From NCBI RefSeq assembly GCF_900177545.1, contig NZ_FXBQ01000001.1, positions 1,134,122-1,198,121 on the forward strand: a stretch of DNA of 64,000 bases. Direction: 5' to 3'. The notes beneath the pieces are model-generated. The model worked only from the letters and a program-made list of their open reading frames with translations. It searched no databases and was not told the origin of the DNA. A program made the position numbers and the translations under genes. The first letter of the stretch is position 1. Each line of letters opens with the position of its first letter. This stretch comes from Maritimibacter sp. HL-12 (GTDB taxonomy: Bacteria > Pseudomonadota > Alphaproteobacteria > Rhodobacterales > Rhodobacteraceae). Of this stretch, positions 4,441 through 55,575 are shown piece by piece.

Positions 4441-5181
4441 TCAAAGCTGGGCCGCGTCGAGCACTTCTTCAAGGATCGGCGCAAGCCGTTCGGCCCAGGC
4501 CCATTGTTGCGCGTCGGTTCGGATCAGGTCGTTCCTGAGTTCCACCAACACGTTCACGCGCCCCGGCCGGATCGCGTGGCGATCGACACTGTCACCGTCG
4601 AGGTGGCCGCCGTAAGGTTCGTTTTCACCGACGCAGAGATCAGGTTCGGCGTGCAGTCGGCGCAGCAAGGGCTGGGCGAAGCGGTCGTCCTTGCCGTAGA
4701 GCACGCCGATGTGCCACGGCCTCGGCTCGCGCCCGCGCAACTGCCGGGTGAAGGAATGGATCGCGACGTAAACCGTGTCGTCGCGTCGCGCCGCCATCCG
4801 CGCCACCGCGCCGTGGTAGGGCCGGTAATAGGCGTTGAGCCTGCGCTCCTTCTCGGCGTCGTCGACGTGCCGGTTGGCCGGGATGATCGTGCCGTCATAG
4901 AGCTTCATCAGCACCGTGGGATCGTCCTCGCCCCGGTTCGGGTCGATCACAAGGCGCGAGAAATCCGACATCACCACCGGTGCGCCAAGCAACTCACCCA
5001 GCCCGATGGACACGCCCGCCGCACCCGGGTCCCAGGCGATGTGGCGGGCCATGTCTTCGGCGGGCAACCCGAGGCTGCCGCCATTCACGTCGGGCGGGAC
5101 GGTATTGGACGCATGGTCGCAGGTGATGAGCCAGCGGGAGTCGCGCTCCTCGCCAAGCACGTGAAAAGGCAGGTAGGTCAT
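4441..5181 (-). CDS. N-formylglutamate amidohydrolase family protein
   Basis: 246 residues. The family is recognised from ITCDHASNTVP near the N-terminus, the central SRLVIDPNRGEDDPTVL, VAIHSFTRQLRGR and the C-terminal VLVELRNDLI. The Asp/His/Glu residues in these blocks correspond to the metal-binding residues of HutG-type enzymes. Canonical members hydrolyse N-formyl-L-glutamate to formate and glutamate in histidine degradation; no hut genes are nearby, so the substrate may differ. ATG 5181 is used, with AGAGAGACGA upstream; a TTG eight codons earlier is possible. Confidence 0.85.
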   Translation of the reverse strand: MTYLPFHVLGEERDSRWLITCDHASNTVPPDVNGGSLGLPAEDMARHIAWDPGAAGVSIGLGELLGAPVVMSDFSRLVIDPNRGEDDPTVLMKLYDGTIIPANRHVDDAEKERRLNAYYRPYHGAVARMAARRDDTVYVAIHSFTRQLRGREPRPWHIGVLYGKDDRFAQPLLRRLHAEPDLCVGENEPYGGHLDGDSVDRHAIRPGRVNVLVELRNDLIRTDAQQWAWAERLAPILEEVLDAAQL

Positions 5182-10707: not shown

Positions 10708-12429
10708 GTGACGGAGCTTCCCTTGCCGCATCCCCTCATCCTTCGCGCGCTCGGCCTGTCCGCGCTCATGCTCGGCGTCACCCTCGCACCGGCCCGGGCC
10801 GACGACGGGTTTGCCGGTGCCTATCTCGCGGCCCGCTCGGCCGATCAAAGCGCCGACTACACAGCCGTCGTGGAATACGGTGCCCGGGCATTGGCGGCCG
10901 ACTCCGAAAACAGCGGCCTGATGGAAGGGCTCATCATCGCGCAGATCGGGCTTGGCCAGATCGAACAGGCGGTTCCGGTGGCCCGCAGGCTGATCGCTGA
11001 AGATGACGACAATCAGGTGGCCGGGCTGGTGCTCATGGCCGATGCCATGAAGCGTGAAGACTGGAACGCCGTGCTCGCGCAGCTGGACGAAGGCGTTTCG
11101 GTCGGCGGCTTTCTCGACCAGATGATCGAGGCGTGGTCGTTTATCGGCACCGGCCAGATGGGCCCCGCCGTTGCCCTGTTCGATGATCTGGCCGATGACT
11201 CCGGAACCCGGCAGGCGGCCCTGATCCAGAAGGCTTTGGCGCTGGCGCTGGTCGGCGATCACGAGGGGGCGGCGCGGATCTTTTCCGGCGAGGACGAGGT
11301 GCTGCAGCTGAACCGCGCCGGGATCATCGCCTATGCCCAGGTTCTCAGCCAGCTCGAGCGCAATGCCGATGCTGCCGCCATGCTGGCAACCACCTTCCCC
11401 GACACCGTCGATGCCGAGCTTGTCACCCTGCGCGAAGAATTGGAGGCCGGCAAACCGATTGCCTTCACCGCGATATCAGGCGCGCGCGAGGGGCTTTCGC
11501 GGCTGTTCTACGAAGTTGCCGACTCGCTCGCGGGCGAGACCGACCCGGGGCTGGTATTGATCTATGCACGGATAGCTGAATTTCTCGATCCTGCCACCGT
11601 CGGTGCCACACTGGTCACAGCAGCCGTTCTGGAAGAGGTCGAAAACTACGCGTTGGCAGCAGAATCCTATGCCCGGGTGCCGCAGGATCACCAGGCATTT
11701 CCACAGGCGCAGCTCGGCCGGGCACAGGCGCTGCGGCGCATGGACCGGGTCGAGGAAGCCATCGAGGTTCTGGAAACTCTCATCGCGGCCCGACCGGAGC
11801 TTGCACCGGCCCACGCCGCACTTGGTGACACCTACCGCTTCGAGCAACGCTTCGCCGAGGCAACGCCGCACTACGATGATGCCATCGCGCTGTATGACAG
11901 GGATCGCGCGGCCCAATGGTCGGTCTATTTCGCGCGCGGCATCGCGCTTGAGCGCGAAGGCCGCTGGCCCGAGGCGGAACGCGATTTCCGCAAGGCGCTG
12001 GAATTGTCGCCCGATCAGCCCTCGGTTCTGAACTACCTCGGTTATTCCTACGTCGAGAAGCGCGAAAACCTCGATGAGGCGCTCGACATGATCCAGCGCG
12101 CCGTCGAAGCGCGGCCCTTCGACGGCTACATCCGCGACAGCCTCGGATGGGTCTATTACCGGCTCGGGCGCTATGAAGATGCGGTCGGAGAAATGGAGCG
12201 CGCGGTGGAACTGATGCCGCTCGACCCGGTGTTGAACGATCACCTCGGCGATACCTATTGGGCCGTCGGACGGCTGCGCGAAGCCCGGTTCCAGTGGAGC
12301 CGCGCGCTCTCCTTCATCACCGATGAAACCAACCTCGAGGAACTCGATCCCGACCGGATTCGGCGCAAGCTGGACGTCGGGCTCGACGTGGTGCTTGAAG
12401 AAGAAGGCGGGGAGCCGATCACGCGATGA
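10708..12429 (+). CDS. Exported tetratricopeptide-repeat protein
   Basis: 573 residues. A signal peptide (hydrophobic LGLSALMLGVTLAPARA) is followed by many TPR helical pairs, clearest between about residues 330 and 540 (AHAALGDTYRFEQRFAEATPHYDDAI; NYLGYSYVEKRENLDEALDMIQRAVE; DSLGWVYYRLGRYEDAVGEMERAVEL; DHLGDTYWAVGRLREA). Such proteins act as periplasmic or outer-membrane scaffolds; no specific partner is visible. The GTG at 10708 is the longest start; a TTG at 10723 has GGAG at better spacing and is a good alternative. The stop overlaps ispE by 4 bp (ATGA), so the two are translationally coupled. Confidence 0.85.
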   Translation: MTELPLPHPLILRALGLSALMLGVTLAPARADDGFAGAYLAARSADQSADYTAVVEYGARALAADSENSGLMEGLIIAQIGLGQIEQAVPVARRLIAEDDDNQVAGLVLMADAMKREDWNAVLAQLDEGVSVGGFLDQMIEAWSFIGTGQMGPAVALFDDLADDSGTRQAALIQKALALALVGDHEGAARIFSGEDEVLQLNRAGIIAYAQVLSQLERNADAAAMLATTFPDTVDAELVTLREELEAGKPIAFTAISGAREGLSRLFYEVADSLAGETDPGLVLIYARIAEFLDPATVGATLVTAAVLEEVENYALAAESYARVPQDHQAFPQAQLGRAQALRRMDRVEEAIEVLETLIAARPELAPAHAALGDTYRFEQRFAEATPHYDDAIALYDRDRAAQWSVYFARGIALEREGRWPEAERDFRKALELSPDQPSVLNYLGYSYVEKRENLDEALDMIQRAVEARPFDGYIRDSLGWVYYRLGRYEDAVGEMERAVELMPLDPVLNDHLGDTYWAVGRLREARFQWSRALSFITDETNLEELDPDRIRRKLDVGLDVVLEEEGGEPITR

Positions 12430-13253
12430 TGACGAAAACCTTCGCTCCGGCCAAGATCAACCTCACCCTGCACGTCACCGGCCAGCGCGCCGACGGCTAC
12501 CACCTGCTCGACAGTCTGGTGATGTTTGCCGACGTGGGCGACCGGGTCCGCCTCGTGCCCGCCGATGCGATGTCGCTCGAAGTGACCGGCCCGATGGCCG
12601 CAGGCGTGCCCGCAGACGCGAGCAACCTCGTCTGGAAGGCCGCAGCCCTGCACGATCTTCCGGTTGCGATCACCCTCGAAAAGCATCTGCCCACGGCGGG
12701 CGGCATCGGCGGCGGCTCGTCGGATGCGGCGGCGACGCTGTTCGCGATGGTCGATCTCACCGGAAACGCCACGATGCCGGAGGGCGCAACCGCCCTCGGT
12801 TCCGACGTGCGCGTCTGCCTCGCCCGGCAGGCGGCCCGGATGCGCGGGGTCGGTGACGAGGTGCAGCCGGTGCAAGGCGTGCCGGAATTGCACGTGGTGC
12901 TTGCCAACCCCGGCGTCGCGATGTCGACCCCGGAGGTGTTCGCGGCCCTCGAAAGCAAGCAAAACGAGCCGATGCCGAAGCGGATTCCGCGCTGGCGTGG
13001 CGCATGGTCCGCGATCGACTGGATCTCGAAGCAGCGCAACGATCTCGAAGCCCCGGCGCTGAAACTTGCGCCGGTCATCGGCGACGTGCTCGCGGCTCTG
13101 ACGGCCCTGCCCGGCGCGCGCATGGCGCGGATGTCGGGTTCGGGTGCCACCTGTTTCGCCCTGTTCGAGGACCGGGCCGAGGCCGATGCCGCGGCGGACG
13201 ATCTTGCCGATGCGCACCCCGACTGGTGGGTTACGGCGGCGAGTCTGCATTAG
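12426..13253 (+). CDS. ispE: 4-diphosphocytidyl-2-C-methyl-D-erythritol kinase
   Basis: 275 residues. It phosphorylates CDP-methylerythritol in the non-mevalonate isoprenoid pathway. GHMP-kinase motifs are present: APAKINLTLHVTGQRADGYHLL at the N-terminus, the ATP-binding LPTAGGIGGGSSDAA, and the C-terminal MSGSGATCFALF. The start overlaps the TPR gene by ATGA, a common arrangement in this order of bacteria. The last gene of its unit; a non-coding gap follows. Confidence 0.97.
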   Translation: MMTKTFAPAKINLTLHVTGQRADGYHLLDSLVMFADVGDRVRLVPADAMSLEVTGPMAAGVPADASNLVWKAAALHDLPVAITLEKHLPTAGGIGGGSSDAAATLFAMVDLTGNATMPEGATALGSDVRVCLARQAARMRGVGDEVQPVQGVPELHVVLANPGVAMSTPEVFAALESKQNEPMPKRIPRWRGAWSAIDWISKQRNDLEAPALKLAPVIGDVLAALTALPGARMARMSGSGATCFALFEDRAEADAAADDLADAHPDWWVTAASLH

Positions 13254-13382
13254 GCGAAAACGCCGTGAACCGCTTCGCCCGACGAAGCCGCGAGGGCTTG
13301 GCTCGCGTGATCAAGCCGTCCATTCGATGTTTCAGGTCATGGCATGAGGCGTGATCCGCACTTCTTGGCGAGTGCTTGAGAA

Positions 13383-13398
13383 TTTGTGATCACAAAAA
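13383..13398. promoter_or_regulatory. Palindromic operator-like site, left copy
   Basis: TTTGTGATCACAAA is a perfect 14-bp palindrome followed by two more A. The 14-bp stretch TGTGATCACAAAAA (13385-13398) recurs exactly, in reverse orientation, at 13645-13658. Its size and symmetry fit a dimeric regulator of GntR type, but no regulator gene is adjacent. Confidence 0.4.
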
Positions 13399-13501
13399 GG
13401 TCAGGGCACCCTGAAGCGGTTGAGCCTTCTGATCTTTCTTCATATCCCGTCCTGCTCGACAGGTTATTGCTGTATTTCGGATGAATCCCCTCATCCGACT
13501 T
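13395..13501 (-). ncRNA. Candidate small RNA (about 105 nt)
   Basis: Read on the minus strand from a sigma70-like promoter at 13508-13536, the transcript would fold into TCGGATGA-GGGGAT-TCATCCGA (13477-13498), a small CCTG-TCGAG-CAGG hairpin (13451-13463) and a terminal TCAGG-GTGC-CCTGA hairpin (13401-13414) followed by CCTTTTTG. This is the plan of a trans-acting sRNA. The terminator stem is short, and no expression evidence is available here. Confidence 0.3.
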
Positions 13502-13507
13502 GTCAAC

Positions 13508-13536
13508 ATTTAGACAGAAGCACCTGAATTCGTCAA
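13508..13536 (-). promoter_or_regulatory. Sigma70-like promoter on the minus strand
   Basis: On the minus strand TTGACG (13531-13536), a 17-bp spacer and CTAAAT (13508-13513) match the -35 and -10 consensus at 5/6 and 4/6. The nearest minus-strand gene downstream is none within the gap (ispE is on the plus strand), so it would drive the candidate small RNA. Confidence 0.35.
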
Positions 13537-13642
13537 TATAAAGGGTTGACGTTTTGCATTTCCGCGCCAAATGGCCAAAAAACGAGTCGCACCAATAGGT
13601 TGGCCTCATCTCGCCGGAAAAATCCGTCGCCGCGTCGTGATA

Positions 13643-13658
13643 TTTTTTTGTGATCACA
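13643..13658. promoter_or_regulatory. Palindromic operator-like site, right copy
   Basis: TTTTTTTGTGATCACA; the part 13645-13658 is the exact reverse complement of 13385-13398. It lies about 40 bp from the end of folC. The two copies bracket 246 bp. Confidence 0.4.
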
Positions 13659-13695: not shown

Positions 13696-14970
13696 TCAGG
13701 CGTTATCCCGCAGCACTTGCCCGGCAAGATAGAGCGAGCCGCAAATCAGGATGCGCGCGGTGGGGTCTTCGACCACGATTGTCGAAACCGCGGCCAGAAC
13801 GTCATCGGCCGTCCGAGTCTGATGTCCTGCGTTGGCGGCGAAACGGGCGGTATCCTCGGCCGAGAGGGTTGCCGCCTCGCCGGGGATCGACACCGCCGTG
13901 AGGCTCGCGGCCCGCCCGGCAAGTGGCCGCATGAACCCGGCCACGTCCTTGGTGTTGAGCATGCCGCAGACAAGATGCGTCGGGCGCGGCGGCAAGCCAT
14001 CGAGCACCCGCGCGAGCATTTCGCCGGCCGCCGGGTTGTGTCCACCGTCGAGCCAAAGCTCGGCCGCCCCGGCCGTCTCGACCAGCGGCCCGGACTGCAA
14101 TCGCTGCATCCGCGCCGGCCAAGAGGCATCGCGCATGGCCGCCTCGCAGGCAGGCTCGGCAAACCCAAGCGCCCGCAGCGCGGCGATCGCCACCCCGGCG
14201 TTCTGAACCTGGTGGTCACCGATCAAGGCCGGAAGCGGCAGGTCGACAAGCCCGGTTTCATCCTGGAACACCAGCCGCCCGCGTTCTTTCCAAACCTGCC
14301 AGTGCTGACCGTGGGCAATCACCGGCGCACCCATCCGCGCGGCCTGCCGTTCGATCACCGCGAGGGCTGCCTCCTCCTGCGGCCCGACCACAATCGGCAC
14401 GCCCGGCTTGATGATCCCCGCCTTCTCGAAGGCGATCTTCTCGATCGTATCGCCGAGAAACTGGGTATGGTCGATCGAGACCGGGGTGATCACGGTCACA
14501 GCCGGTTTCTCGATCACGTTGGTCGCATCGAGCCTCCCGCCCAGCCCGACTTCGAGCAAGGTGTAGTCGGCTGGCGTTTCGGCGAAGGCGAGCAGCGCCG
14601 CCACGGTCGTGATTTCGAAATAGGTGATGCTTTCGCCGCCATTGGCAGCATAGCAGCGGTCGAGCACCTGCGTGAGGTGGTCTTCCGAGATCAACGCACC
14701 CGCAAGCCGGATCCGCTCATGAAAGCGGGCAAGATGCGGCGAGGTATAGGCATGCGCCGCAAGCCCCGCGCCCTCGATACCGGCGCGGATCATCGCCAGC
14801 GTCGAGCCCTTGCCGTTGGTGCCCGCGATATGCACCACAGGAGGCAGACGTCGTTCGGGGTGGCCAACGGCCGCGAGCAGCCGCCAGACCCGGTCGAGCG
14901 TCAGGTCGATCACTTTGGGATGGAGCGACATCATCCGGTCGAGGATGACATCGGAGCCGGGGTTGCTCAC
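13696..14970 (-). CDS. folC: Bifunctional dihydrofolate synthase / folylpolyglutamate synthase
   Basis: 424 residues. It adds glutamate to dihydropteroate and then to reduced folates. The Mur-ligase ATP loop [11 protein letters not shown] is near residue 50, followed by [14 protein letters not shown]; the central [16 protein letters not shown] and the C-terminal [15 protein letters not shown] are family signatures. The start is a GTG that overlaps the accD stop (GTGA), the classic accD-folC coupling. The gene ends at the edge of the AT-richer gap. Confidence 0.96.
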
Positions 14971-55498: not shown

Positions 55499-55575
55499 GG
55501 CGTGGTAGCTCAGCTGGTTAGAGCACAGCACTCATAATGCTGGGGTCGGCGGTTCAAGTCCGCCCCACGCTACCA
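55499..55575 (+). tRNA. tRNA-Met (anticodon CAT), elongator type
   Basis: A 77-nt cloverleaf: acceptor GGCGTGG/CCACGCT (G1-U72 wobble), D-stem GCTC/GAGC, anticodon stem CAGCA/TGCTG around loop CTCATAA, T-arm GGCGG TTCAAGT CCGCC, discriminator A and an encoded CCA. The acceptor end with a paired first base and the G-rich D-loop suggest the elongator rather than the initiator; the initiator has an unpaired first base. Confidence 0.93.

Follow-up and report, generated by a model that had tools for sequence, protein, structure and literature searches.

In the genome of Maritimibacter sp. HL-12, the gap between folC and ispE holds a short block in which we recognize what appear to be the promoter and 5' leader belonging to a gene for a secreted rhodanese-type protein; ancestrally this gene followed folC. 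We consider it somewhat better than an even bet (about 0.57) that this mRNA leader now stands as an RNA unit of its own, probably controlled by a GntR regulator of the TCA cycle. Comparison of related genomes indicates that the gene has been lost, that the leaders are homologous, and that leader and operators have been retained in ten species. That leader and operators persist in several genera makes a live RNA unit moderately credible, and the stretch may survive as a regulatory sRNA connected with central metabolism. Coordinates below refer to 'the window', the 64,000-nt stretch of DNA that was analysed.

The block's upstream neighbor, folC (13696–14970), lies on the same, minus, strand. Its convergent neighbor (12426–13253, plus strand) we take to be ispE, a name that comes from an earlier note on this DNA. 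The earlier note described a candidate free-standing small RNA of ~105 nt in this gap, made from a minus-strand TTGACG-17-CTAAAT promoter and carrying three hairpins. The letters are as described: TTGACG occupies plus-strand positions 13531–13536 and CTAAAT positions 13508–13513, with a spacer of 17 nt, and the arms TCGGATGA/TCATCCGA lie at 13477–13498, CCTG/CAGG at 13451–13463, and TCAGG/CCTGA, followed by CCTTTTTG, at 13401–13414. The region is AT-richer than its surroundings, as was also remarked (47% GC across 13395–13536 versus 66% across the window). The predicted RNA (13395–13501, minus strand) would be ~107 nt long if it ended at the third hairpin, both ends being placed from the promoter position and the terminator-like pattern. 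What stands of the original description is the promoter and the first two hairpins, which are conserved; the terminator hairpin is not, and the origin of the unit appears to be the leader of a lost gene.

BLASTN located the block in five of seven genomes of the genus, the window's own included, and a protein search added a sixth, G003, which scores 39 bits with the covariance model R1; no block was found in G002 (73% complete). In the genus mates the block again follows folC on the same strand, and the best of their matches spans window positions 13443–13602, stopping short of the proposed terminator. The earlier note would have taken the RNA as refuted had this gap proved unconserved in close relatives; they conserve the promoter and first two hairpins, also where the gene is absent, so that objection falls away. 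A mixed query matched 5/60 genomes: four genus mates, and G017 with a weak piece. Across 295 family genomes BLASTN matched just two, the window's own and a rejected, coding-looking 27-nt piece of G252, and a covariance model was therefore needed. R1 was built from 12 sequences; searched under stricter filters with a cut-off of E ≤ 0.01, the 394 family genomes gave 12 with a match. Seven of these matches, at E ≤ 2e-8, all lie just after folC; four are model members (the window's own genome, G075, G235 and G247) and three are new (G340, G359 and G379). The remaining five (E 0.0025–0.0096) were not accepted as carriers: three lie before rhodanese genes, one before another gene after folC, and one where no folC end is near. 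Motif searches were set aside as well. With one mismatch, 35 of the 394 family genomes matched, but the reversed-pattern control also held many; the exact motif occurred, besides the window, only in G162, where by eye it lies in an apparent coding region, and in G235. The block gave no match in plasmid and phage collections.

Together, the family genomes and the named genomes of a folC scan (best 80 of 581) contain at least 16 carrier species in which the leader follows folC. In a folC tree of 25 rows these 16 group together as a single clade (support 89/90). In a 21-row tree the 13 carriers included are not a clade; Celeribacter and Actibacterium fall among them, unresolved.

The identity of the missing gene is suggested by the carriers that retain one. 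In Maritimibacter alkaliphilus (G235, locus L146) the leader stands directly before a ribosome-binding site and the ATG that opens a gene for 209 aa; the product has a rhodanese domain (PF00581, E 6.2e-10) and what looks like a signal peptide. In A. lamellibrachiae a rhodanese-type gene lies directly behind the same leader. The homologous leader also precedes a gene in G003, G004 and G005, whose products (142, 151 and 152 codons) are shorter and also look secreted; those of G004 and G005 have no Pfam match, and that of G004 matches a rhodanese panel weakly. This panel was matched by 24 of 173 folC-downstream stretches (two pooled sets, not deduplicated, carriers included; two of the first 95 were dropped for want of a recognizable folC end), and 21 of the 24 have a TTGAC-type promoter pattern. 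In the window, a by-eye alignment to the M. alkaliphilus gene places a frame-broken remnant of the signal-peptide region at 13348–13440 on the minus strand: two parts match, the V-I-T codons at the right palindrome and a stretch of 14 nt, but a frame break separates them. Behind the operator the window is similar to M. alkaliphilus at z 4.7. Downstream of the leader there is a frame of 17 codons at most, and then ispE on the opposite strand. Elsewhere in the same genome (G000:C2:366759-367301, L228) there is a rhodanese paralogue with an open frame and an unrelated upstream region.

A full-length gene was not seen in 10 of the 16 carriers found, and all ten keep the promoter, leader and two palindromes. 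These are the window, G001, G006, G075, MAG2b27, Aliiroseovarius F20344 (AliF) and S1339 (AliS), G379, G340 and G359. Among their ten sets of loci the rhodanese panel, at E ≤ 0.05, matched only in G006 (0.024) and MAG2b27 (0.005, distant from the leader). A. subalbicans was counted as gene-bearing; its third codon is a stop and no frame near the leader exceeds 51 codons, which could place it among the gene-less carriers instead. Four of the ten gene-less carriers (G006, MAG2b27, AliS and G379) still have an ATG-led frame of 37 codons or more after the leader, a point against the RNA reading.

The main rival, unlikely on balance, is that the block is a plain relic: a promoter and leader whose gene was lost recently, still decaying and functionless, any transcript being noise. 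Remnant codons recognizable by eye in the window, G001 and G006, with the frame broken, favor such a reading, since the gene may have been lost only lately and the rest kept in part by inertia. So does the folC tree, which does not cleanly separate gene-bearing from gene-less genus mates, and so does the rhodanese paralogue of the window genome, which is 45% identical to the M. alkaliphilus protein and could make the gene dispensable. Against it stands the strength of what has been kept. The leader is conserved in all six gene-less pairs tested (z 6.5 to 12.4; the test predates the finding of G340, G359 and G379), and both operators are present in all ten gene-less carriers found. G075, G340 and G359, moreover, keep the unit with no rhodanese match and no ATG-led frame of more than nine codons behind it. 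The part behind H2, the second hairpin, is below z 2 in three of the six gene-less pairs (window–G006, window–G001 and AliF–AliS) and similar in the other three (G006–G001, 4.2; window–G075, 3.1; MAG2b27–AliS, 7.2); in gene-bearing pairs it reaches z 10.8 (G004–G003) and 5.6 (G005–G004).

The promoter (13508–13536, minus strand) is recognized by its conservation, because a sigma-70 consensus scan returned no promoter at threshold; CTAAAT agrees with TATAAT at three of six places. The earlier assignment is nonetheless borne out by the relatives, in which the −35 and −10 elements are conserved: promoter similarity is z 8.3 between the window and G006, and z 10.4 between the window and G001. Aligned in one orientation, the genus mates have in common a GACTC box, GTCAACCC with TTGAC beyond it, the −10 element and CCTGTCGAGCAGGAC. 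AliS lacks TTGAC, and the promoter similarity of MAG2b27 and AliS is z 1.8, anchoring being rough there. The GACTC box, read on the minus strand and followed by a run of T, lies at 13584–13588 and is a GANTC sequence, presumably a CcrM-type methylation site. In all 16 carriers found, GANTC occurs 123–135 nt before the TCGAGCAG motif, and it is kept in place while its middle letter varies, as CcrM sites would. Upstream of these 16 leaders, whose sequences are related, 41 GANTC were observed versus 2.8 expected. In other genomes GANTC lies between −35 and −10 in 27/34 TTGAC-type candidates after folC.

Taken as RNA, the 116-nt stretch 13390–13505 folds better than chance (z −2.64), and of the three hairpins proposed earlier the first two are conserved in relatives. 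The first, H1 (TCGGATGA/TCATCCGA, 13477–13498, minus strand), beats shuffles on its own (z −4.5, p 0.002; p 0.001 in a second run), and at the same place most relatives form a hairpin with other arms. Combined over 13 related sequences its recurrence is significant (Fisher p 2.8e-6), as it is with one sequence per genus (n = 7, p 2.6e-5); taken singly, A. lamellibrachiae (p 0.78), G359 (0.50), G003 (0.29) and G001 (0.22) are not significant. The second, H2 (13446–13463, minus strand; CCTGTC-GAGCAG-GACGGG, with the TCGAGCAG motif), has a longer, 6-bp form (CCTGTC/GACGGG) besides CCTG/CAGG. It is conserved in sequence rather than in pairing: TCGAGCAG is unchanged in all 12 aligned leaders, G003 carries TCGGGCAG, and no compensatory change in the aligned leaders backs either the 4-bp or the 6-bp form. 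H2 shows no covariation, the kind of evidence to which the earlier note looked. The third hairpin, TCAGG/CCTGA (13401–13414, minus strand), is neither significant nor conserved. A terminator pattern scan lists it (two such sites in 551 bases versus 0.6 expected), its 50 nt do not exceed shuffles (z −0.70, p 0.24), the part behind H2 gives z −0.4 for window–G006 and 1.9 for window–G001, and it sits within the remnant signal-peptide codons of the lost gene. G075 has a strong hairpin ahead of the right operator (z −4.8). At gathering score, Rfam returned only a tRNA at 55499 for the window and nothing for 13 related loci; permissive Rfam searches gave sub-threshold matches only, far below gathering scores.

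On either side of the unit lies an operator-like palindrome, GTGATCAC. The left copy (13650–13657) falls between the folC stop and the promoter, and the right copy (13386–13393), 264 bp away, overlaps the V-I-T codons of the lost gene. The left palindrome is present in 13 of the 16 carriers found, in one of them with one letter changed. Both occur in 10/10 gene-less carriers versus 2/6 others (Fisher p 0.008, ignoring kinship); with A. subalbicans counted as gene-less, the proportions by hand count become 10/11 versus 2/5 (one-sided p about 0.06). In the gene-less carriers, one of which has a left site with one letter changed, the palindromes are 255–267 bp apart, and this range holds for all 12 carriers with both, two of which have one letter changed in one site. 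The two others with both are A. lamellibrachiae and G004, the latter with one letter changed in its right site. A. subalbicans has the left palindrome and a poor right one, 269 bp apart; M. alkaliphilus has the right palindrome only, and G003 and G005 have none. Copies of GTGATCAC that many named loci have near position 4478 fall within folC and were not counted.

These palindromes recur at genes of central metabolism. In the window genome, a 12-letter form of the pattern has seven sites at ≤1 mismatch, versus none for the reversed-pattern control: two at the block, two in the mdh–sucC gap, one ahead of a GntR/FCD gene that begins just after 1087886 on C2, one before sdhC, where a second copy lies 21 bp away, and one within a reading frame. 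In eight carriers a 10-letter pattern gave 8 to 25 strand matches each, versus 0 to 2 for the controls, and 20 of the pattern-bearing stretches, from six of the eight genomes, were read. Among these relatives, one site stands before gntR in G001, G006 and G359, and pairs of sites stand before sucC (21 bp apart) and sdhC (20–21 bp) in G001, G006, G340, G359 and G379. Before methylmalonyl-CoA mutase in G001, G006 and G359 (L278, L281 and L283) there are GTGATCAC pairs 156 bp apart, another widely spaced pair. The block appears to share its operator with sdhC, sucC and gntR of a predicted TCA-cycle GntR regulon. Four further palindrome stretches (L276, L277, L287 and L290) are near different genes or ones of uncertain identity; either the regulon extends beyond the TCA cycle or part of the sites arose by chance. 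In R. sphaeroides, the GntR protein RSP_0981 was predicted to control genes for succinyl-CoA synthetase, sdh and alpha-ketoglutarate dehydrogenase (PMC4344238). The window genome may be comparable, the palindrome standing before the GntR/FCD gene, sucC and sdhC; in contrast to the candidate proposed here, the accessible text of PMC4344238 assigns no sRNA to the RSP_0981 regulon. The accessible text of PMC5343134 contains no matching regulon, and a literature search did not find TGTGATCACA together with GntR.

A working model of the RNA unit can be assembled from these parts. With the coding part gone, the promoter, leader hairpins and two flanking operators would constitute a short minus-strand transcription unit. 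The palindromes, which lie at about −150 and +110 relative to the predicted start, would both be occupied by a GntR/FCD protein regulating the succinyl-CoA segment of the TCA cycle. This protein would gate transcription, perhaps by bridging the two sites; as a repressor it would silence the promoter between them and release it on a change of ligand. The RNA would then act in trans through H1 and the TCGAGCAG motif. Duplex prediction against the 5' regions of sdhC, sucC, gntR and mcm gave no support for pairing there (z −1.1 to 1.0; 16 of 19 planned tests had a start, and accessibility was ignored).

It is improbable that the conserved entity is regulatory DNA rather than RNA, the paired operators and GANTC boxes forming a protein-bound loop to which the transcript is incidental. 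The narrow range of operator spacings is what a loop might require, including the 269 bp of A. subalbicans with its poor right site, and the distance from H2 to the right operator is likewise held at 59–68 nt though the sequence between is often not conserved. Looping, however, does not call for a hairpin that recurs with changed arms across seven genera (p 2.6e-5), nor for a TCGAGCAG motif that is invariant, in all 12 aligned leaders, between the −10 element and the operator. Least probable of all is a small protein or leader peptide encoded in or behind the leader: MAG2b27, AliS and G379 keep a start codon and frames (39, 43 and 37 codons) that include V-I-T, and there are frames of 102 codons in G006 and 17 in the window, but G001, G075 and G359 have none, AliF and G340 have 1 and 9 codons, respectively, the frames are unlike one another, and TCGAGCAG is invariant at every position.

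Small RNAs derived from 5' leaders (5'-UTRs) are a recognized class in bacteria. The candidate RNA resembles them in that promoter and first hairpins are common with an mRNA leader; it differs in that the downstream full-length gene is gone in ten species. How new bacterial sRNAs originate is, to our knowledge, poorly documented, and the conversion of mRNA to sRNA is directly testable here because close relatives with and without the gene have it, or its absence, behind the same promoter, leader and operators. The locus would add a candidate RNA to the central-carbon regulon of largely marine bacteria. In its fullest form the proposal is tentative, and as a whole rather doubtful: that an enzyme gene was lost repeatedly within a single Rhodobacterales clade while its leader became a regulatory RNA, wired to a TCA-cycle (succinyl-CoA) repressor by two operators ~260 bp from each other and, through GANTC methylation sites, to the cell cycle; a coding gene would thereby have turned into an sRNA gene in several lineages at one locus. 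StsR and UdsC of R. sphaeroides are, as this candidate would be, short regulatory RNAs of Rhodobacterales; UdsC is reported to be 3'-UTR derived, unlike the leader here. The accessible parts of the sRNA papers on R. pomeroyi and Paracoccus mention neither folC nor zapE, and rhodanese once, as a predicted target in R. pomeroyi; the accessible literature on folC, small RNAs and Rhodobacter contained nothing on such a unit.

Other RNA candidates occur downstream of folC in Shimia, Cognatishimia, Thalassovita, Pseudooceanicola and others. They have the same place, a TTGAC-type promoter, no rhodanese match and, by eye, a terminator-like hairpin; they differ from the unit described here in that 0/12 loci matched R1 at E ≤ 0.01 and several have GACAGGCAGGCAGG instead. 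In such loci just after folC in other genera (L159, L175, L203, L214, L069, L072/L209, L085, L130, L171, L210, L207 and L047), the hairpin lies 100–240 nt past the promoter, in some with GACAGGCAGGCAGG before it (by eye; five were folded).

Two further observations concern the surroundings of the unit. With names assigned by eye, folC faces ispE in the window (12426–13253) and in G006 (L005), and zapE in G001, G004 and G005; a shared rearrangement is likely. In four gene-less, Aliiroseovarius-type loci (L148, L149, L151 and L235), an GTTAGGCGGGC- or GTTAGGCAGGC-like sequence is seen by eye behind the right operator and, farther to the 3' end, a GGGGTC stretch; together these are possibly a conserved 3' end of such loci.
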